Shown here one piece after another: positions 1 through 38,514 of a DNA stretch of 64,000 nucleotides (positions within the stretch are counted from its first letter, which is position 1; each line of letters begins with the position of its first letter). Source of the DNA: Cinnamomum chago (taxonomy: Eukaryota; Streptophyta; Magnoliopsida; Laurales; Lauraceae). The position numbers were made by a program, and so were the translations under genes. The DNA is taken from the NCBI GenBank assembly GCA_038049695.1, contig CP142452.1, positions 76,268,501 through 76,332,500 on the forward strand, given 5' to 3'. The notes under the pieces were generated by a model. That model was not told where the DNA came from. It saw only the letters and a program-made list of their open reading frames with translations, and searched no databases.

Positions 1-952
1 CTAGGACCAAATAGTCCCTCCTAAGAAAATTTTAGCTAGTTGATTCAAGGCGAATCATAGATTTTAGAGGGCTCAAAAACCACCATATGAATCAGATCAG
101 AGGCTTTGACATTCTGAATAGTGTGATTTTGGGCTACCCTTCCACTCCTTAGTCCTCCTTCATATCAATAGTTTGATGAAATTAGAGGAAGACCAAGTCG
201 ACCCAAATTGTCGTGAAGTACACTATAATGGCCATTTAATCTTCCATTTATTGTTACTTGTCATGTTTTTTAAGCAACCCACTCACTTACATTTGCCAAC
301 ACCCATTTTAGTGATAAGCATATAAGTTATTACTCAAATCACTGAAATCACCACCATCAGTTAACTACATCTTGAACACCGGATTAACTTCCTTCATTCC
401 CCCTCTTTTTCATTGAAAAATAGTGTGTAAAATCTAGTGATCAATCGAATGGCCCACTGAAATTGACTTTTGAGTAGTTAGTTACAAAGAATAGTATGTA
501 TGTTGATAGCTTGGAATTTGGAAAGGTGCCCCACGTACGTATTTAGCAAGAGAGATTCACTACCCTAGGAAATCAGTCCCACTCTATACCCAACCATCTG
601 AAATCTCAAGACATGATATTTAGTTGTTATTAGAGACACAGTTCTTTTCCCCTGGAGCAGCTGCTAGAGCTAATTAAGGAGGCGTTCTTGCAACGCCCTC
701 TTCCGCGAAAATGGTAGAAGATTCTCGTTACGATTTGGTGTAGCGTCAACTTGATGTAGAAAATGATTCTTTAGCCGAAAGTCCTACCATCTTAGGTCAT
801 CTTTTCTGTGCTATAGAGGATCCGCCTATCATCCTGGGTCAGAAAGCGGTATAGTGGACGCGGTTTCCACTTCTACAGTTCGTGCACAAATGACTCCTAG
901 TAATGGCAGTAATGAAAACTCCAAACTGGACTCGAAAGAGCAAGAGATTATT
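1..952. other. Intergenic, no gene recognised
   Basis: No long open frame and no family that I recognise. Around 690-950 the plus strand has a short coding-like stretch broken by stops, which I cannot assign. It ends where the LTR-like repeat beginning at about 953 starts. Confidence 0.4.
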
Positions 953-2835
953 TGACGCTCCACCCTTGTGGACCCTCACTTATGTTTGAATTGTGTAAAT
1001 TATAGTATATGCTATCTAATTATACTAATTAATAGGGGTTAATAAGGGTAGATTGGTATTTTCCTAGGATGTTAGCCTATTTTATAACAATTAGTTCCTT
1101 TTTGTGTTTATAGGTTTTGTAGGGTGTTTATTAGACTTTTAAAGGTTTGCTAGTTAGTTAGAGGCCCTTGTTAGTAATTATAATTAATAGGAAGGGTTTC
1201 TACATTAGAATCTTCAAACTACACCTAAAATTCCCTAAATGCCCATGTACTTATCCTAAACTTAAATGAAACCAAATGGTGTGCTTTGGACCTTTCCTTT
1301 TCAACACAAATCTATATATACAAGCCTCCCCGATTCCAAACGATCTCTCATCTCTCTTTCTCTCTTCATTTCTCATTTTCTCTCCAATTCTCTCATTTCT
1401 CTCATTTCCCTCCAAGTTTTCCCCTCCAATTATCTCTTTAGAATCCTAGATCTAGGGTACCTACAAAGAAGAAAGGGTTCTTGTAAGCTACTATTATTAT
1501 CTATCCTAAGGATCTCTCTCATCTCCTAGAACTCTTCTCTATACAATAAAAGGTAATTTCGTTCCCTTAGCTCAATTTTCATAGAATTTTCTTTCTCTCT
1601 CTCTCTAGAATTTCCCTTTTCCCTTATGCAATTCTCTTGTGGATTTGGGTTTTGGAGCTGTAGATCTTCTTAGATTTGAGTTTTGGGTTGGTTAAGAGAT
1701 TGGAAGCCAAATGAGACTGAATTTTTATATTTGGAGCTTAAATTTCTATCTCTAGCCTAATACGTTGCAATTTGGAGAAAAGGTAAGTACAATCTACCTA
1801 TTTAGCATAGAATGCATGTTTTCTTTGTTTGATTTTGGGTACTTGATTGTTAGATCTATCTCTTTAAGCCTTGTTTTCTTTGATTTTGTCTTTTGATGGA
1901 TGTGTTTTCTCATTTGGAAAATCAATAGCCCAATTGATGATGGATTTGTGTTGGTTGGAGTGGTTTTGGTGATTATGGATGGTTTTATAATTATTAGAGA
2001 TGATTTGAGTTGGTTTTGATGGAAATTGGATTGGAATGGAAAAGATACATAAATCTGGAAATTTGAATTACGTGTGTACCCGGTCGACCACCCTTAATAC
2101 ACTGGGAACTAAGGAAATTAACTGGAACCTGAAATGTGTCTCGGTCCTAGAAAATCAGTGTACCCAGTCAACCGCCCTTGCAAGATGACGACTGGATATA
2201 CTGCACATGATGCTTTGAGAAGGAAGTCGAGTCTCAGCTACTTCAGTGTACTCGGACGACCGCCCTCGCAGGATGTCGATCAGACACATAGGAGAAATCC
2301 ACGAATTCAATTATGCCTGCAAAGTTTATGTCCAGAAGTCCATGTATAACTGGTCGACCTAGCACCCATTAAGTCGACCAGATATACTAGGCAGGATGTC
2401 AACCTTGTAATCAAAATGATGACTTTCCCAGTGTACTCGGTCAACTACCCTTGGAGGATGTCGACTGGATACACTGCAGACGGTGATTTTCCAGAATTTT
2501 AGATTTTGAGGTTATGATCTGTTGTGGGCCCATTGACGATCCAGGTGGACTTTCATTGGTGTGCCTAGCACGAGTCAAGGGTTTGGCTTAACTAACCTTG
2601 ACTCACGGGCGCCACCAAAGTAGGGTCTAGTGTATTGAATGAATTTCAATTCAACCCTTAAACGTTGTTGAAAATGCCTGTAACGTCAAGAGCACCAAAT
2701 ATACTTCCTTTGGCATCTGAAACTTCATTTAGGAATTGAATTGGATGACATGGACTTGGGCCTAAAAAGGGGGCCATGACCTAGGATTGGACCTTAGCTA
2801 TTCTTCCATTGATTGGCTTGGATTGAGGGGTATGT
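953..2835 (+). mobile_element. Long LTR copy 'A' (Gypsy-like), left part
   Basis: This is the left part of an LTR-like repeat that resumes at 8361. It matches the reverse complement of the 3417-7291 LTR along its length: the TGACGCTCCACCC start, the 'GAGTCAAGG..TTGACTC' stretch at 2570-2610 and 'CCTAGGATTGGACC' at 2781-2794. A TATA-like CTATATATAC lies at 1312-1321, followed by a CT-rich leader, as expected for the promoter of an LTR read on the plus strand. No coding domain is present. The family is inferred as Ty3/Gypsy with very long LTRs (Del/Tekay-like); this rests on layout only. Confidence 0.65.
2071..2490. repeat. Array of imperfect palindromic units in LTR A
   Basis: Four to five units of about 45-50 bp each pair an arm such as AGTGTACTCGGTCAAC with a downstream arm such as GTCGACTGGATACACT, separated by roughly 15-18 bases. 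Core motifs are GGTCGACC, GGTCAAC and GTCGACC. Clear units lie near 2071-2110, 2157-2205, 2244-2290, 2344-2387 and 2429-2480. The equivalent region of LTR C (5177-5699) has the same layout with different bases. Confidence 0.6.
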
Positions 2836-3416
2836 TGAAAGTCCTGGGATCCTAACCCTAAAGGGGGGGTGAATAGGGTGTGCTACAAATATGACCAATT
2901 TAGACCAATTTTAACTTCTTAACATAAACTAGTCACAAGTGATGATTAATCAAACAAGGTGCGGAAGCTAAAATAAACAATCACTACAAGTATACACCAC
3001 AACACAAAGGTTTATAGTGGTTCGGCCTCAATGCCTACGTCCACTACCAGCTTGTGATCCAATCACCCCACCGGATTTCCACTAACTATGCTTTTTACTA
3101 GGCTAAGCAATAACCTTTACAATGTTGTTTTTCTAGGCTTAACAACAACCTTTACAATGTTGTTTTTCTAGGCTTAACAACAACCTTTACAAGCTGCTTT
3201 TCTAGGCTAAGCAATAACCTTTACACAATGCTTTTATTAGGCTAAGCAATAACCTTTAAAAAAGAAAGATTTCTCTAAGAAGGTGTCTTCACAAAAGATC
3301 ACTCTAAGAGATACAATTTAAGCTCAATGATGTTGCTTCTTAAATAGGCTAATATGAAAGTGTAAATCAACTCACACAAACACTATATGAATGCAAATGT
3401 GTATGCTCATGATGTG
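2836..3416. mobile_element. Unclassified repeat 'B' inserted in LTR A, left part
   Basis: The sequence starts just after TATGT (2831-2835), which recurs at 8361-8365 where LTR A resumes. It contains a G-run followed by GTGAATAGGGTG (2865-2880) and a GTGGTTCGGC..GCCTACGT block (3017-3042) that recurs in altered form near 17848-17872. It continues after the solo LTR at 7292-7967. No protein domain is visible, so the class is open. Confidence 0.5.
3089..3262. repeat. Tandem repeat, about 5 units of 33-40 bp
   Basis: Units of the form 'CTTTTTCTAGGCTAAGCAA' followed by 'TAACCTTTACAATG' follow one another five times with small changes (AAGCAATAACC versus AACAACAACC). The array lies inside repeat B. 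Confidence 0.75.
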
Positions 3417-6400
3417 TGTAATGCCCCAATTCCGGATACCGATATACTCGTTCGATTACCCGAAATTGGCACGCTACTTCCCGGAAAATCCGAGAACTTC
3501 CAAGATCGTAGGCCGCAGTGAGGTCCAATTTAAAACTTTTTGACCAACATAGTTATAACATTTAAATTGCGGAAGCATAACGATTTAAATGAAGCGGAAG
3601 CAATAGGTATCGATGTATATATATATTAAGTATGAGCGGAACATCAATCTAATTAAAATGATTCAATATTAATCAAAGTTAATACATTTTGAGTCTACCC
3701 AACTCACTACAAAGTTTCGCTCAAACCCAAAATAAATGGAGTCCCTCAAAACCCATGTATAAACTCCTCGTCCTCCGGCTCGACATCCGTGTCGGCCGGG
3801 CCCCATGCGTACTCTCCTGCAACGGGTGCCTCCACTACAGCTAGTGTGTCATCTGGGATCTCGGGATCAAGGCCTAAGCACCATAGAATGGGTCAGATCT
3901 AACGATCTGGCAAGATACAGCATACTACTAACATAGAACATATATATCAAAGGAAATAAAGACGAGTACATAAATTAAATGAGTAGCAAGGGAAAAGAAC
4001 TAGGCAGTTGTGCATTTAAATCATAAGGAATCAGTATAAATAGAAACAACTAAATTACTATAAACAAGGTGGCACATTCACACGAGCTGGAATACCGCGG
4101 GATATTATGCCGCGGCCCTCCCATACTGAACACAGTCGCGGTGGGGAATCTCACCAGGGAATAAAATCCCGAATATCACTCATCAACTCATCATCTCATC
4201 ACTCCAGATCGGCACGGTATGACACCTTGCCGTCTTAACCACACAGCTCATCATGATAGCTCCTCAATACTCAACTAGCTCCTACCGAGGATGATCAGTC
4301 CACCGGCTGAGCTTAAATCAACCGAGTGAATGTTCATGCCGACTCGAGAATAACTCTAAGGTCTGTGTCTGTCTAGGCTTTGCCTTGCGTGAACAAGGTC
4401 CTAACAATACCTCTATAAGGTCCACACATCTTAATTCAGTCTCTGGATCTTATTCAAGATCCAGGCCCACTCGTTGGATCCATACCAAGGCCCATCAGTA
4501 CATGGCCTGGTCTAAAACCGTCCAAACGAGGCAACCAATCCATCTACTACTGACAAACAATTCCATTATAATCCATATAACTTAACAGTCCAATAGAAAC
4601 TATCTCTTCAAGCTAAAGGGTTCACATCACCACACTTAGGCCCAATAAGGGCCCGCCTAGACACAGACACGGGTCAATGATCTCCGAAGTCACATCATCG
4701 GGTCACCTCTAGATACCCTAGGTTCAGGTCTTCCATTTATGTTCAATTAATGGTAAGCAGCTATTCTAAAGATCTAAGAATGACAATAAATGATAACAGT
4801 GAAGTATAAACTTCAATCAGAGAATCAACGGGAAATCCAACGGTCCAATCCTAGGTAATGGGCCACTTTAGGTTCGGGTCTATCTCCGGTAATTCGATCT
4901 CTAAACGATGTCATTAATGCCGTAAAATATTGTATTTGGTGCTTAGTTAGTTAATGGCATCTATGACAACTCTTGGAGGTCGAATCATCTTAGATTATCA
5001 ACCAAAACTCTAAACAGTGGTCCCCGCGAGTCAAGGTTGAGCCACACCGTTGACTCGGGCTTAGGACACTGATAAATACTCATTTGGATGGTCAATGGGC
5101 CCCACAACTGATCATATCTCCTAAATGTTGAAAACTGGAACAATCAGGGTTTTCCAGGTGAACCTGATGTGTTGTGAGCTCGGTTGATTTCCTGGCCTGG
5201 AAGATCAACCGAGTTCACTGACAAACCTGAATCAGGCTTCCTGGACAACTCAATTCGTTTTTAAAGGCTTACAGCGTGTCCGGTCAAACAACCTGGCCTG
5301 GATGATTGACCGCATACTCTGAAAACCTTAGAACGATTGATGTTCCCGCTTTAAACATCACCTAAAGTAAAATCCTAAGTATCAAGTCCATTTGGGTGTA
5401 AGGAGTCTGAGTTTTGATTGAAGAACCAACTTTCAGTCACTTCCTGCACAAACAGCGTGAATCGGGTCAACCGGTGCGAGACCAGGTCAACCCGACTATT
5501 TGAAATGAAATTTGTGCAAGAAATGGCTAAGGGCCAGTTTTCCAAGAAATCTCAGTGTGGCCGGTTAACCGGCCTGCATAGTCCGGTTAACCGGCTGCAC
5601 TGCAGCAAGCCCCTGCAGGAACTTAACTGGGAGCTACCCTTCCAGAAATTTCAGTGTGGCCGGTTAACCGGCCTGCATAGTCCGGTTAACCGGCTGCACG
5701 AAACCTGGGATTTTTCCAGGTTCTGCAGTCCCTCTGTTTTGGCTCCACTTCCACCCAAACTACTTCCAATCCATTCCAAACATCTCCAAACCATCTCCAA
5801 ACATAGATTAACTCCAAAGCCCAACAAATAACCCTACTTGGACCCATTGATCTACCAAATGGGAGGTGAAAACCCCCATCCATCAATGCCATTTCCATCC
5901 AAGAATACACAAACAAGCTCAGGTAGAAACTAAACCATAACAGAACATCAAATGAAATGGAAAACTACTGAATCATGAACTAAAATACACATCCTAAGTT
6001 ATGAGTATGATGCACTTGCCTCTTGTAGCTTGAGAGAGAGGTTGTAGAGAAGAAACAGAGGAAGAGATAGTAACAGAGAAAGAACCCACTTCCAGCTGAA
6101 TCAGAAATGATGAAGAAGGAGATGATCACCCAGCAGCTACTCTTAGGACCACCCAGCAGTAGCAGCAGTTACAGAGGGTGAAATGAAGAAGAAGCACACA
6201 GCAATAGTTCCCAGCTCAAAGGGGAGAAGAAGTATGGCAGCTGAAGCTCCTTAATGGAGAATTCCAGCACAACAGTAGCCTCCCAGGGAAATTCCAGCAG
6301 AGTAACAGATGAGGGAATGAAGAGAAGAAGATAAAGGAAATGAAGAAACAGATGGCTGCAGCTCCTAGATCATTTTCCCATATGGACAGCAGCTCCCAGG

Positions 6401-7291
6401 TGAGAATTCCAGCACAAACAGGAAGGTAGGAGCAGTAGTAGCAGCTGATACAGATTTAGTGGCTTGGTGGAGGTGAAATGTGAAAGGAAGAAGAGGGTGA
6501 ATCAGCTGTAGCAAGGGTCTTCAAGATGGAAATTCCAGCAACAGGAGAAGGAAGATGAGATGCAGCAGCTCCAGAGGAAATTTCAGCAGAGTAACAGCAG
6601 AGAATGAAGAGGGAAAAGGGGTGGCTGCTCCAGCTGAAGTGAAGAAGGGCACAGCAACAGCTTCAAGATGGAGTTTCCAGCAACAGTAGTTGGTTGCACT
6701 GCTCAAACGTATGAGAGGAATTTAGGGGTGGAAGTTGGGAGTTGAAATGGGCTGGAGGTGGTTTCCTTGGGAAGAGGGCTGGAAGTTATCTTGGGAAGGG
6801 GGCTGCTTAGGGTTTAGGGTTTATTGCAAATGGGGGTTAAGAGATATTATATAGGTCTAGGGGGAAGTGATTAAAGACTATAACACCCTTAGGGTTTAGT
6901 GAGATTAGGGTTAGGGTTTAAGGGTGGTTGGGTCATTTGGTTAGGAAGTTTCTAGAAGAGAGGCACCTTAGCACTAAACCCACTTAATTAACTTAATTAA
7001 TTAGACTCTACTAACTAAGCCTAAGATTAACACAACACCCAACTTAATTAAAAACACTAACCCACTAAGTTAATCTAACTAACTTAGGAAATCTAACTAG
7101 ACAATCTAATTAGCCCCTAATTAGCCCAAATAAAACAGTAATAAACAATGATTAGCCATAATTAGCGAAGATTAGCGAAGATTAACAAGGATTAGCAAAG
7201 ATTAACATAATTAAACAATAATTAACATAAATTAGAGTTAATTAGTCTATAAAATAGCCCTTAGAGGGCCCACCAAGGGTGGGACCTCACA
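3417..7291 (-). mobile_element. Solo LTR 'C', 3.9 kb, Gypsy-like, flanked by ATGTG target duplication
   Basis: The sequence starts TGTAATGCCCC and ends GACCTCACA, so it has TG..CA ends. The 5-bp target duplication ATGTG lies at 3412-3416 and 7292-7296. No primer site, polypurine tract or coding domain is attached, which is what a solo LTR left by LTR-LTR recombination looks like. A TATA box (CTATATAATATC) near 6850, followed by a CT-rich leader, reads on the minus strand, so I place the element there. It is the same family as LTR A (953-9450) but in the opposite orientation. Open frames within it, such as 5418-5831, are not genes. A gap-free family consensus would show whether a few kb of R/U5 is normal for it. 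Confidence 0.75.
5177..5699. repeat. Array of palindromic units in LTR C
   Basis: Five hairpin-forming units. At 5177-5221 the arms TGAGCTCGGTTGAT and ATCAACCGAGTTCA pair at 13 of 14 positions. Weaker units lie at 5274-5316 and 5457-5500. Two exact 49-bp copies lie at 5552-5600 and 5651-5699, and each holds two perfect CCGGTTAACCGG palindromes, giving four in all. The two exact copies suggest a recent duplication or local conversion. Confidence 0.75.
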
Positions 7292-7967
7292 ATGTGTGTG
7301 TGTGATAACTTCAATCAAGTTTAAAAAGAAGGCTCATTCAAATATATGCTCAAAGCATTTCAAAGTTTAAGGCACATAAAAGATTTGATTGAAGTTTAAT
7401 GCAAATCACATGTATGAGAAACAACTTGTTAATTACATGAAAATCAAAGACTCACAAGTTGTATGAAAATGACTAACTTAGAACATGTGATGCATGTGCA
7501 ATGTTGTTTTCAAAACCAAATTAATTTAACTAAAGTTTAAATGAATGAAAACAACAAATTGAGTTTCAACCAAGAAAATGATTCATGCTAAAGGAAATCA
7601 AAGATTTAGGCTAAGCATGATTAATGAAGATTTTAAATCAAAACTTGGTTTGAAAACAAAGTGAAGAATCCAATCTTAATTTGATCAAAGATTAAGAGAA
7701 GAATGGATTCAACACATCATAATTATCATGCTAAAAATCATTTGCCAATATTTTAAACAAAGCATATAACATATGATTAAGAGAGGTAGAGCTTACTTAG
7801 AGATTTAACTTCACTAATCCAAGCTTTAGCTCTCCAAATGACTCTTTGGTCTCTCTTAGTTCATCCCCTTTGTCTTGTCTCCAAACTCCTCAAAGATGGC
7901 TTAAAAATCTCCAACTTTGACAAATGAATGAACTTCATTTTATAGCTCAAAACTGCCCAACGCAGAT
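7292..7967. mobile_element. Unclassified repeat 'B', right part
   Basis: Continuation of the repeat that starts at 2836, resuming after the ATGTG duplication (7292-7296) of the solo LTR. It is A-rich and non-coding, with many words of the AAAGATTTGATT and AAGTTTAATG type. It ends against the TRIM element at 7968. Confidence 0.45.
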
Positions 7968-8360
7968 TGTTGAGGTCAACGTCCACCCTCGCTCCTGAGC
8001 GGTCATAATTGTGGTTGAGCCCTCGCCCTCACCATAAAACTATTGTTGTGCCATTTCCTATCACCAATTGGTTTTGGGATAAGTGGTAGCTCAATAGGGT
8101 GTAAGATCCTACAAGTGGTATCAGAGCCTGGTAGGTCGGGTGTTCGAGTCACGGGACACGCATTTTGCGAGTTCGCAGCAGGAGTCGCGGCGGGTGTGCC
8201 GTTGAGGGAGGGATTGCTGAGGTCAACGTCCACCCTCGCTCCTGAGCGGTCATAATTGTGGTTGAGCCCTCGCCCTCACCGTAAAACTATTGTTGTGTCA
8301 TTTCCTATCACCAATTGATTTTGGGATAAGTGGTAGCTCAATAGGGTCTAAGATCCTACG
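7968..8360 (+). mobile_element. TRIM (terminal-repeat retrotransposon in miniature)
   Basis: Two direct repeats of 146 bp, 7968-8113 and 8215-8360, differ at about six positions (4%). Between them is an internal domain of only 101 bp. It begins with TGGTATCAGAGCC (8116-8128), the usual primer site for initiator tRNA-Met, and ends in a purine-rich GAGGGAGGGA just before the second repeat. No coding capacity exists or is expected in a TRIM. The 4% divergence suggests a few million years at usual plant rates (inference). The 3' end coincides with the point where LTR A resumes. Confidence 0.85.
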
Positions 8361-9450
8361 TATGTTAGACTTTATTCATTGATGCTCACTCTTATATTTA
8401 TATATTGCTTATACATGTTAATTAAATGGAAAATGGAGGACCCGAACCTAGGGTTTCCTAGTGGTGACCCGGAATTATGGATGGATCGAGGTCATTTGAC
8501 TCGTGTCTGTGGCTAAGCGGGCCTAAGGATGGATGGATATGATTACCTTAGAGAAAAGGACTATTTTAATGACTTGTAAACCCATTTATGAATGGGAAAT
8601 GAAATGAACAATGGTAGACTTAGATATTGATGAGGTACTTGATTGTGTTGGACTGAGATCAGGACATGGTGGTTCATGGTCGTGGATTCAATGATGGACT
8701 TGAACTATGGATTGTATTTATGGATTAGACTTGGATACCGGACCTTGTATGGATATGTTATGACCATGCTCGCGCAATGATAGCTTAGACAGACAAAGAC
8801 CTTTACTTGTTTCCATGAGTCAGCAATAAACATTCACTCGGTTATTATAAGCTTAGCTTTGGACTGATCATCCTTGGTGAGAGCTATTATTTGTGGATGC
8901 GGCTATCGTGACGAGCTATGGTTAGACGGCCGGCAGACTCTGGTAAGTATATGTTTCGTTTGCAGTAGGCAGACTCCGGTAACGGCATATATACTTTTTA
9001 GGATTTTTTTATTGTTATTTGGCAAGGCTTGTTATCCTTTGCATTGCACTTTATTTTTCCTACCGTGACTGGTTGACAGTATGGGAGGGCCACGGCATAA
9101 TATCCTGCGGTGGCCAGCTCGGTGAATGTGTCATATTGGTGGATGGTGAGTTAGATGATTTACTTCCTTACTAGTTCGCTATACTTTGCACGATTGCTTA
9201 CTTCTGTACATTTGTTACTATTATGATATTATCACCGTTTCTATTCTCTTTTGATGCATACATCCTATGTTACTTGTATATTGTGCATTGTCAGGTCCTT
9301 GGATATGACCATCTTTTGGTGTTTAGGTATTATCCCTGACCTCGAGGGTGATGCACTTCTCGAGGCGCTTGCAGTCGACGAGTACGGGTGGGGATCGACA
9401 AACCGGGAGGTGGAGTCGGAGGTTGGAGTGCCTGTACTAGGAGATTGAGT
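8361..9450 (+). mobile_element. Long LTR copy 'A' (Gypsy-like), right part
   Basis: Resumes LTR A after the insert. It is collinear with the reverse complement of 4790-3780: GAACCTAGGG..GGTGACCCG near 8444-8472, CATTCACTCGGT at 8830-8841, GGCCACGGCATAATATCC at 9089-9106 and a CTGACC..GAGGGTGATGCAC stretch at 9337-9357. Homology fades after about 9450, so the right end of this LTR is not visible. The small open frames here are not supported as genes. Confidence 0.6.
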
Positions 9451-9985
9451 GAAGTGTGACTTCTAATTCTGGAAAAAAAGGATCTACTCCATAATAAACT
9501 ATAAATAAGCGGAAAGGATTAGAGATCTCTCCACACAATCTCATAAGGCTCTTTCTCTCCTTCCTCCTCTTCTCTCCTTTGGTTTCTTTCTAGAGTGTTA
9601 AGGTTTTCTTCTCCTTAAAGATCCCACCATTTTCTTTGAGGAGTTCTCTATATGAGGGTCATAGCGTGGAAGAACAATCAAATCTATGAAAGGGTTTCGC
9701 AGAATCAAGTTTTCTAGTTCTCAATTTGAGCATAACCAAGCTTTTAAGGTATAGATCTACTATCTAGTTACTTAAAGTAAATCTTTTAGTTTGTGCTTGT
9801 TTTTCTTGATTTGTCTTCTTAATAGATTTTTTACCTTAATGCTTGAGATTAGGGTTTCAGGGCTTGGGATTGAGTTCTTGGCCTTTTGGATGTTTGATCC
9901 CTGTATTAAGTGGGTCAAAAGTTTTTGAAACATGTTTATAAAACCCACCTACTTCCAACATAATTTGTTGGAAGTAGGTGGGCCT
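9451..9985. other. Non-coding spacer, LTR-like, with 17-bp hairpin
   Basis: A TATA-like ACTATAAATAAG (9498-9509) is followed by a CT-rich stretch, resembling an LTR promoter, but no ends can be defined. At the right edge a perfect inverted repeat (CCCACCTACTTCCAACA, 9944-9960, with its complement at 9966-9982, 5-nt loop) marks the junction with the Gypsy gag sequence. Confidence 0.45.
9944..9982. repeat. Perfect 17-bp inverted repeat, 5-nt loop
   Basis: CCCACCTACTTCCAACA and its exact reverse complement are separated by TAATT. The second arm starts TGTTGG and the first ends CCAACA, which are typical retrotransposon LTR termini facing each other. Confidence 0.9.
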
Positions 9986-35841: not shown

Positions 35842-38514
35842 TGTCACATCCCGGTCCCGAAATCACCCGACCTAGGGTAATTCCTAAGGTGTGGCATACG
35901 TACTCCCGAATGTTGTACCTGTCTCGAGCCAAATACAATACACGAAGGAGAGAAAAATCGACTATTCCACGTGTGAGCCTAGCTCACTAACACAAACGAA
36001 TGACATTTAAATATAGCGCAAGTCGTAGTTCATTTACAGAAGGTATCATTTCCCATTCAGTTCAGTTAAACATTTAAGTTTGATACAAAAGAATTATACA
36101 AGTATAAACATTATGTTACAAAAGAGGGATCAATGAAAGAACTTTATACATCCACTACCAAAAGTATATTCAAAAGAATTACGTATGACTACACAAAAAG
36201 GGGCTAGTCACACGAACTATGATATCTTCAAAATGTAGCACGCACTCCGAGGGGGTAGAATCTAAGCTGGCCCTTGCTCTGACCACTCTTCTAAATCTGG
36301 AGGTACGTCTTGGGTAACATCCTCTCCCTCCGGGACCTCTTCAGGACCGAGAGTTGTATCTGCGTCTGTGACACCAAATGTAGTATCTCAATACGATGAT
36401 TTAGCAAGTATAGGCAAAATAAGAGATCACATAATGTTGTAAATTGAATTTAAGACAATTGAATCAGTAGATGTCAATGATAAGTATCAACTATGCAAAT
36501 CGTGCAAAAATCGAGTAATTATGCTGGTGAATCAATTAATAAGTTAACATATTAATTTGGCTACTACTTTAAGCTCATCCTCTCAAAGAGAGCAAATCTA
36601 GTTGGGATGTCACCAGCTGCCCGGCCAAAGGCTAACTGGCTACTCGGTTCTAGAGTTCCGGTACTCCAGACGACTTATTGCAGTAGTCTCTAATAAATTA
36701 AACCAAGTTCAAACCCCGTCGGGTATCACAAGATTGAAGTTAAGTAGTGCTGACTCAATCGAATCAAAATAATCGAAATAATAAGTGGATTCGAGTGAGT
36801 TTGTATTTCAAACTGTCTATAATCAAAATCAATGCAATTCATATATCACAGTATACTTACTCAATCCACATTTCCAATAAATACTGAATCGATATACAAT
36901 ACTTGAAGAATTACGGAAGAAATGGAGTAATTAGACCTCAAAGGATATTGATGATACAATAAATCTATTAATTATGATTGATATACAAAATGAAAGTGTA
37001 ATTAAATATGAAATGCAATAATTTAAGGAATCAAGGAATTTACTAGTCAATCTAGTCTAATCCTCTATTGTTTCCTCACCATCCAATTCGACATACATTT
37101 AAGGAACTTTTACTTAGTGTCACATTTTAATAAAAGGTTCATTAAATTAATATCCATGGCATGGTGATAAAGTCCTGACTTTTAGGGTTATTCAAGTTCC
37201 TAGGGTTTCAAGTAGGCAACTAAGAGATTAGGATATCCATTCATGGCTCTAAGAAGGCTTTTGAAATAAAATAAAAAAAATTATAAATTCGGGGAGGTCG
37301 CTCAGCTGGCGGTGGCCTGGCGTTAGCCGCCTGTAGAACAGTCAGGTAACCGCTTGGTGACCGCAGTTTCCTGACAGAAATGTCAGTTATTGGAAATGCA
37401 ACCGTGGAGTTCAGCTAGCTGCCAGGGGTCATGCGGCTAACCGCCAGGTGACCACCTGGTGACCGCTTGGCCTGCGTTTGCCAAATCTGAAGCTCTCTCT
37501 CTCTTCCCTCCATTTCCACACTTCTTCTCACATTATACCTATAAAAATGGAGCCTCCTTCCTCCCATTTCCAACATATAATCATTCCATAAATTTAAATA
37601 CATAAAGAGAGCCCAACCTTACATTTATTAAACATTAAGAGTAATAATGGAGTAAAAGTTTCATTGAATCAATGGAAATAACAAGATGTAAACCCATGTT
37701 ATGCTTATACTTGCCTCAATGTAGCTTTCCAACACCTCTTCTACACTCTTGGCTTAAGAACCCTATATCCCCAAATATTCAAACCCTAGACACAAATACC
37801 CATCAAAACACCAATCAATGTCCATACATGTTTATAAGAGGGTCTTTTGACTCTAATGCAACTCAAAAAATCCAAAGGAAAGAGTGTTGACTCATACCTC
37901 AACAAGGAAATTCGAATTGAAGAAAATAGAAGATGATGGGGGTATTTCTTTGCTAACAAAGCAGAGAGGAAGATGAAGAAGATGAAGTTGAGTCATCTCC
38001 AAGCCTCCAATGCAAATGCCAAAATCTCTTGATGATTAAAGGAAGGAAGAGAAGAAATAGAGAAGAAGAATAATAGAGAAAAGAGAGTAAAGGAATGAAA
38101 AGAAAAGGGTAAAGTAGCTTATAAAGGGATAAGGATGTCCCTTTTTGCAAGAAAACTCACTAAAGTTTCATATTTCTAATTTGAGTCAAATGGAGGTCCA
38201 CTAGTTCAATGGTTGGTCAAATGAGACAGAATTCAATACAGAAACTAACGTGGTCATCAAAATACACGCGTTAACGCCAAGATGACGTGAAAATAATGCA
38301 AAATGTAAAAATCTATAATTACGAAAAAGTCCTTGACTCTACCTAAGTGAGTCAACTCGGTTCTAACTCACCTATCCAAGGCTCAAGACTCAACTAACTC
38401 AATCTACAAAGACTAACGAGTACTAATTTCGATGATTAACAACTAAGCACAATTATTTAAACTAAATCCTCATTAATTAGCACTAATTAAGATTAACTTG
38501 AGTTGGGTGTAACA
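35842..38514 (-). mobile_element. Solo LTR, 2.7 kb, Gypsy-like, flanked by CCTTC
   Basis: Begins TGTCACATCCCGGTCCCG and ends GGGTGTAACA, with TG..CA ends and a perfect 5-bp target duplication CCTTC (35837-35841 and 38515-38519). No internal domain is attached, so it is a solo LTR. On the minus strand a TATA-like TTTATAAGC (near 38120) is followed by a CT-rich leader, which favours minus orientation. The start is of the type seen in very long LTRs of plant Gypsy elements. It is a different family from LTRs A and C, but also carries clustered GGTAACC/GGTGACC motifs at 37305-37470. Confidence 0.8.
37305..37470. repeat. Clustered GGTNACC motifs in the second solo LTR
   Basis: GGTAACC, GGTGACC (three times), GGCGGT, GGCTAACCGCC and related words are packed into 165 bases in alternating orientation. 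The stems are weaker than those in LTRs A and C. Confidence 0.5.

Follow-up and report, generated by a model that had tools for sequence, protein, structure and literature searches.

Palindromic dyad arrays in gypsy-type and Sirevirus-like long terminal repeats of Cinnamomum chago as candidate sites for a dyad-binding host factor

The window analysed here, i.e. the whole stretch of 64,000 nucleotides, was taken from Cinnamomum chago (assembly GCA_038049695.1, contig CP142452.1, positions 76,268,501 to 76,332,500 of the forward strand). It holds three long terminal repeats (LTRs) with arrays of short palindromes, designated LTR A, LTR C and K (Table 1). An earlier, sequence-only reading had claimed about five hairpin units each for LTR A and LTR C, and five were located in either. 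LTR A is, judged by similarity, a truncated relative of LTR C on the plus strand. The insertion target of LTR C was the remnant of a Sirevirus-like LTR. The empty site is preserved ~125 kb away in a duplicate of window 555-8262 without LTR C (L032, C2:76145077), the halves of which match window 555-3419 at 96.6% and 7293-8262 at 97.8% with no gap between them. A nearly identical palindromic unit is present in gypsy and Sirevirus-like LTRs of this one genome, two retrotransposon types with only remote kinship, which suggests a common control site more than RNA hairpins.

Table 1. Positions of LTRs, arrays and predicted signals in the window. TSD, target site duplication; the slash marks the putative splice position.
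Feature	Position	Strand	Details
LTR A, predicted TATA box	1312-1324	plus	sequence match
LTR A, splice-donor-like site AG/GTAAGTACAA	1775-1792	plus	AG/GCAAGTACAA in most relatives having the site
LTR A, array of five units	2074-2476	plus	2074-2104 (shortened), 2156-2203, 2244-2289, 2344-2387, 2429-2476
Sirevirus-like LTR, 3' part	2836-3416, continues 7292-7962	minus	~90% identity to L145 and L131; interrupted by LTR C
LTR C, complete solo LTR, 3,875 bp	3417-7291	minus	ends TGTGAGG...GGGGCATTACA, TSD ATGTG
LTR C, array of five inverted-repeat units	5174-5699	minus	5654-5699, 5555-5600, 5453-5499, 5272-5321, 5174-5218
LTR C, splice-donor-like site CAAGAG/GCAAGTGC	6009-6025	minus	offset 1266 in LTR
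LTR C, predicted TATA box	6843-6854	minus	offset 437 in LTR
K, second solo LTR, 2,673 bp	35842-38514	minus	TSD GAAGG
K, dyad array, 11-bp ladder of CGGYYASC/GGTNACC dyads	37290-37470	minus	sequence

For each of the queries LTR C, LTR A and the 37 kb cluster (K), 40 places were scored, and 30, 30 and 20 relatives were fetched, respectively. A 19-base anchor adjoining the array gave 955 + 959 genome matches; 40 of 100 listed places were fetched, of which 39 were usable. The A, C and anchor loci were reduced from 98 to 70 non-redundant ones. Inverted repeats with a score ≥ 10 were counted and compared to 100 shuffles each for LTR A and LTR C. Two were found in LTR A and four in LTR C (shuffle means 0.11 and 0.13, maximum 2). 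Since the summed scores were 24 for LTR A (shuffle maximum 22) and 62 for LTR C (shuffle maximum 21), LTR A taken by itself is borderline by this score, unlike LTR C. The arrays extend well beyond one or two copies: the 70 non-redundant loci contain 225 inverted repeats and 69 of them have at least one, with a shuffle mean of 0.18 per locus. Where flanks were available (32 loci), the array held 2.6 inverted repeats per locus, compared to 0.84 downstream and 0.63 upstream (flanks given per 680 bp). Pattern counts covering the 1.06 Gb genome gave 36,642 GGTCGACC pairs within 30 bp versus 52 for the reversed control, and 1,108 CGGTTAACCG pairs versus 0 for reversed controls.

The unit is ~46 bp long, roughly CAGTGT-NNN-CGGTCGACC-loop-GGTCGACCG-NNN-ACACTG, and comprises two dyad cores of the form CGG-N4-CCG, e.g. 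CGGTCGACCG, CGGTTAACCG or CGGTCAACCG. A unit model using the sequence only yielded 249 good units; a locus holds between 0 and 6 of them, most commonly 4. The two cores are spaced 20-22 bp in 99 pairs; smaller groups occur at 12, 31-32 and 40-42 bp, plus scatter. Of 181 distances between neighbouring units, 150 fall in the range of 70-119 bp, and the mode is ~99 bp. L098, L101, L104 and L109 carry a short GAGCTC/CAGTGC-rich minisatellite (~17-bp units by eye) in place of the upstream array portion.

In K, a looser GGTNACC cluster had been noted at 37305-37470. The cluster of dyads was found, although it is built differently, in 11-bp steps and with no inverted repeat scoring ≥ 10 in the window. 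Among the 20 K loci, 40 of 42 adjacent dyad distances ≤ 50 bp are multiples of 11, forming a ladder of 11, 22 and 33 bp. The suggested enrichment of GGTNACC-type dyads against shuffled controls was confirmed for these loci (4.7 versus 0.18 dyads per locus).

Twenty additional loci with a GGTCGACC pair, all within the initial 3 Mb of contig C1, were assigned by alignment. Seven of these were Sirevirus-like over ≥ 250 bp (L124-L128, L131 and L138; L127 also has a gypsy match of 282 bp), five matched gypsy arrays (L130, L132, L137, L142 and L143) and eight neither. L145 carries the exact 16-mer Sirevirus junction CAATTGGTATCAGAGC (CA/ATTGG/TATCAGAGC) at the end of its 5' LTR, GGGGGAG six times in sense before the 3' LTR, and a C-rich stretch near the LTR end, which the window copy has at its LTR end, too. 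The dyads of L145 are located ~510-615 bp inside the 3' LTR, and the last core is 26 bp before the putative TATA sequence CTATAAAAA. In L146, the internal region of which is 92% identical to that of L145, this distance is 29 bp; here, the variant GGTTAACC/GGTTGACC is used with core steps of 22, 21, 22, 50 and 22 bp, GGGGGAG occurs five times in sense, and the exact junction is that of the neighbouring LTR end, ahead of the dyad-holding LTR. The junction, the C-rich signal and GGGGGAG as a repeated polypurine tract belong to the published hallmarks of Sireviruses. Both copies contain gag-like open reading frames with a zinc knuckle, and no pol match was obtained in these two copies. In the window, the homology at 7292-7962 stops beside the dyad position; L145 and L131 carry units. 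In 9 of 12 Sirevirus-like loci, CAGTGT precedes the first core by 10 nt and ACACTG follows the second by 4 nt, which are the distances of the gypsy units; the exceptions are L152 (one base off) and L127 and L146 (without CAGTGT/ACACTG). L147-L152 are not independent, having been retrieved through their similarity to L131. An example is the pair GCAGTGTTCCCGGTCGACCGGGACC...CCGGTCGACCGGTGACACTGC in L145 compared to GCAGTGTTCCCGGTCGACCGAGACC...CCGGTCGACCGGCAACACTGC in the gypsy locus L118.

The hosts of the C and K arrays were determined from the internal regions of C- and K-type elements. A full-length relative of LTR C on contig C6, with an array region 99% identical to LTR C, has gag-pol in the sense of the LTR, a purine-rich tract immediately ahead of TGTGAGG and a primer site TGGTATCAGAGC 5 nt past the LTR end; therefore, the minus strand was taken as the sense of LTR C. 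Two pieces of this C-type copy contain Retrotrans_gag, RVP_2 and RVT_1, followed by SH3_Tf2-1 and Chromo, the latter with an E-value of 2.8e-4 and 21.2 bits, which is below the curated cut-off of 25.1. By its domains, the C-type element is classified as a Ty3/gypsy chromovirus, which we take to be Tekay-like. The type is young, as 13 of 3,665 positions differ between the two LTR loci of one copy. On another contig, the stretch bounded by two K-type matches of the same strand encodes RVP_2, RVT_1 and RNase H, then Integrase_H2C2, and the K family is assigned to the gypsy type on these matches.

The LTRs A, C and K have a common order of a predicted TATA box, a splice-donor-like AG/GYAAGT and the array. 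It starts in LTR A at window 1312 (Table 1); the array of LTR C spans LTR offsets 1586-2126, and in K the three elements are found at offsets 387, 797 and 1044-1224. In gypsy LTRs, the array is found 657-1,690 bp 3' of the predicted TATA box, with its start at 0.65-1.15 kb. A TATAWA/TATATA match is present 600-925 bp 5' of the first detected unit in 24 of 30 A-family loci as a raw count, and a donor-like site 261-453 bp 5' of that unit in 15 of 30. A promoter near the 3' end of LTR C (TATATATA, offset ~3670) was rejected and the box at offset 437 preferred, because no such 3' box was found in the tails of six A-family loci. The proposed position in the R/U5 part would fit insofar as the array is located downstream of the promoter given by the predicted TATA boxes. 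An acceptor-like TTCTTCTTCATGACAG directly 5' of the gag ATG was seen in one C-type copy, and the array may therefore sit inside a leader intron. Antisense to K, at window 37541-37560 (plus strand), a CTATAAAAATGG box follows the dyad array like the TATA of Sirevirus-like LTRs; some K relatives have an altered version of this box.

CpG dinucleotides are retained in the arrays. The ratio of observed to expected CpG is 0.69-0.78 in the three arrays (island-like by this ratio, formal island criteria aside) versus 0-0.4 in 250-bp steps between TATA and array. Among loci with sufficient flanking sequence, the array exceeded the upstream part in 18 of 20 of the A type and in 5 of 5 of the C type. 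The CpG-poor leader comprises window 5792-7041 (LTR C; offsets 251-1500 hold 1 CpG), 1206-1955 (LTR A) and 37515-38264 (K), and is present despite the young age of the C type and the many CpG found farther downstream in C and K. One could read the arrays as CpG-rich epigenetic control regions, a silencing hotspot or boundary, in which methylation matters and not a sequence-specific factor. The CpG values would suit such a role, and motif clusters of Sireviruses are described as CpG islands in the accessible text of PMC2829016. A pure CpG role requires no dyad symmetry, however, and the frequent CpG further downstream in C and K LTRs also argues against it, so this explanation is considered very unlikely.

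Between families, the two arms of a unit change together, as the sequence-only reading had claimed. In a swap test, cognate arms were paired to 0.702 and swapped arms to 0.603 (standard deviation 0.006; none of 5000 swaps reached the cognate value), the difference being inflated by the relatedness of the loci. For 217 distinct units, the mean covariation was 27.2 on the true pairing diagonal versus 5.8 on the next best one. On the unit tree, 12.6 double Watson-Crick events were counted versus 0-5 on 12 slid diagonals, and 4.3 versus 0-2 when restricted to branches with at least three units. In the inner flank of 44 distinct GGTCGACC pairs (50 listed), 85 of 176 positions were complementary versus 72.5 after permutation (p = 0.027); positions 2-4 gave 69 of 132 versus 53.6 (p = 0.003) and position 1 gave 16 of 44. 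Conservation of layout but not of bases likewise applies between families; within the A family (111 aligned units from 30 loci) the bases are largely conserved, with single C/T or G/A differences making up most of the changes.

Alternatively, the units could act as RNA hairpins in a long leader, either as hairpin templates for small RNAs silencing the element or as dimerisation or packaging signals of the unspliced genomic RNA. Folding as RNA gave z-values of -2.9 to -7.4 for six stretches, four of LTR C being at -3.9 to -7.4, and unit 3 of LTR C pairs along its whole length with G.U pairs mid-unit. In A, C and K the array follows a predicted TATA box and a donor-like site, which would be suitable, on terminal branches G.U-type breaks slightly outnumber A.C-type ones (106 versus 93), and the palindrome-rich part of maize Sirevirus LTRs is a mapping hotspot of small RNAs according to the available part of PMC5311732, citing Bousios 2016. 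G.U-type mismatches are, however, not favoured over A.C-type ones in the core (103 versus 106), on internal branches with at least three units (18 versus 22), in the outer arms (40 versus 103) or in the inner flank (33 versus 39), and A.C is the commonest state of the outer pair 5-41 (99 units versus 73 with A.T). Selection at the RNA level, one of the options raised originally, is unsupported for this reason, a conclusion qualified by the resemblance of most changes to post-insertional decay. Moreover, the unit is upstream of TATA in those Sirevirus-like LTRs that were read. RNA hairpins are hence regarded as unlikely. A known RNA family was rejected as well: when 900-8200 was scanned against Rfam, the four matches with E-values up to 1 were all under the gathering scores, and the best (0.033) is outside the arrays.

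The arrays could also be without function, having arisen by mutation (quasi-palindrome correction, template switching during reverse transcription, tandem duplication) and been propagated along with the elements. Two units of LTR C are 98% identical across 56 bp, and S/C units are somewhat more alike within a locus than at different places of different loci (0.766 versus 0.733), though this is not seen in the A family (0.800 within a locus versus 0.802 across loci); concerted evolution of units is hence weak in S/C and absent in the A family. The minisatellite replacing the upstream array in four loci would agree with a mutational origin. Single-arm breaks (316) exceed double events ~25 to 1, and the arms of the next-to-last unit are not conserved above the loop (arms 0.574, loop 0.586, spacer 0.568). 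Against this, geometry, ~99-bp phase and CGG-CCG core persist across otherwise differing families and in two LTR types, and the identity of the last unit between A and S/C loci is 0.729 in the arms and 0.319 in the loop. Absence of function is regarded as unlikely.

Of the options raised, a dyad-binding protein gives the best reading. With a probability of about 0.5, we infer that the arrays are cis-regulatory dyad sites for a dyad-binding host factor, a module used by two retrotransposon superfamilies. In favour of this are the dyad excess, the regular spacing of cores and units, the conserved arms of the last unit, the joint arm change between families with no preference for G.U, and the occurrence of the unit in Sirevirus-like LTRs, for which a motif of this kind has been published. 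They would act as regularly spaced pairs of dyad sites recognised by a dyad-binding, probably dimeric, factor, with a possible effect on transcription or silencing of the element. The cores of a pair, being 20-22 bp apart, would be exposed on one helix face, and the ~46-bp pair is repeated about every 99 bp. In Sirevirus-like LTRs the module would operate from just upstream of TATA, and in Ty3/gypsy chromovirus-like LTRs from downstream of the predicted TATA box, behind the splice-donor-like site. Binding would require symmetry of each site, and for this reason the arms would change jointly between families.

Several observations weigh against binding by a host factor. In the A family the arms hardly co-change: double Watson-Crick cells number 27 versus 20.5 by permutation, which leaves little compensation, and one pair of 16 stands out (5-40; 5 versus 1.5, p = 0.006). 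The R-scape-type covariation check gave no significant pair, the tree-based null being beaten by none (best E-value overall 4.8, best true pair 19); the power of this test is low because the tree was built on 48 columns. The lacking arm excess of the next-to-last unit counts here, too. The loci share ancestry, so the spacing of 20-22 bp does not represent many independent events, and 8 of 50 CGGTTAACCG pairs among the matches listed are spaced 14 bp. Given this shared ancestry and the 14-bp class, helical phasing is not claimed as proof of binding. The fit of the gypsy-unit model to 14 Sirevirus-like loci (12.7-32.4 bits versus ≤ 8.8 on 300 shuffled sequences) speaks for a shared unit, but these scores were helped by the choice of loci via GGTCGACC pairs or homology to one such locus. 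Finally, the gypsy array is downstream of the predicted TATA box, unlike in Sireviruses. LOB-domain proteins were considered as a possible plant factor.

Somewhat more tentatively, the ~46-bp double-dyad unit and its parallel variants (GGTCGACC; GGTTAACC/GGTTGACC) may have been exchanged by recombination, or have converged, between Sirevirus-like Copia elements and Ty3/gypsy chromoviruses, in which case very many LTRs would respond to one dyad-binding host factor, with their arrays placed on opposite sides of the promoter. If true, this would be a regulatory module common to two retrotransposon superfamilies. With nearly the same unit at very high copy number in gypsy LTRs, the question of what reads the Sirevirus-type palindromes becomes accessible to tests, with the shared sequence serving as bait and the two promoter geometries available for comparison.

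Two further observations were made. At window 3741-3905 (minus strand) and 9291-9460 (plus strand), two diverged LTRs contain a short open frame with a similar acidic end peptide (ILWCLGLDPEIPDD...EYAWGPADTDVEPEDEE and IFWCLGIIPDLEGD...EYGWGSTNREVESE), and the K LTR also has an acidic frame; possibly, this frame encodes an LTR peptide. Same-strand matches at C1:48184092-48210177 and C2:39786772-39798396 are regularly spaced in steps of 8,695 bp and 5,812 bp, which suggests tandem LTR-internal-LTR arrays.

Retroviral dimerisation palindromes are located in the leader and keep their self-complementarity while their bases change. The arrays described here behave likewise, and differ in that the Sirevirus-like unit is upstream of TATA and G.U is not preferred. 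In open-licence literature on plant, gypsy or Tekay LTR palindromes, including the accessible parts of PMC6911290 and PMC11963269, no description of palindrome arrays in gypsy LTRs was found, and a search of such literature with the core sequences showed no LTR paper by title among the papers listed. The original statement that no function had been described needs amendment, since palindromic CGG-CCG repeated motifs, e.g. CGGTCGACCG in Vitis, are described as specific for Sireviruses by Bousios 2010 (PMC2829016, as far as accessible), where a regulatory role was proposed but untested. In the accessible text of the same paper, no common binding factor for these palindromes was found, and the TATA box follows the motif island by 37 bp on average. 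The palindromes of maize Sirevirus LTRs (Bousios 2016 via the available part of PMC5311732) also vary in sequence; those belong to Copia elements and coincide with a small-RNA hotspot. In common with the Sirevirus motif, the arrays have a CGG-CCG palindromic core, the Vitis version being the core of LTR A and the Citrus version (AATCCGGCTWRCCGGATT) resembling the dyads of K relatives, and occur in several CpG-rich copies per LTR, the bases of which vary while the symmetry stays. In contrast to the motif as published, they are found in Ty3/gypsy LTRs with C- and K-type gypsy domains, downstream of the predicted TATA box and not shortly upstream of it, and as ~46-bp pairs with CAGTG/CACTG outer arms in a ~99-bp phase.

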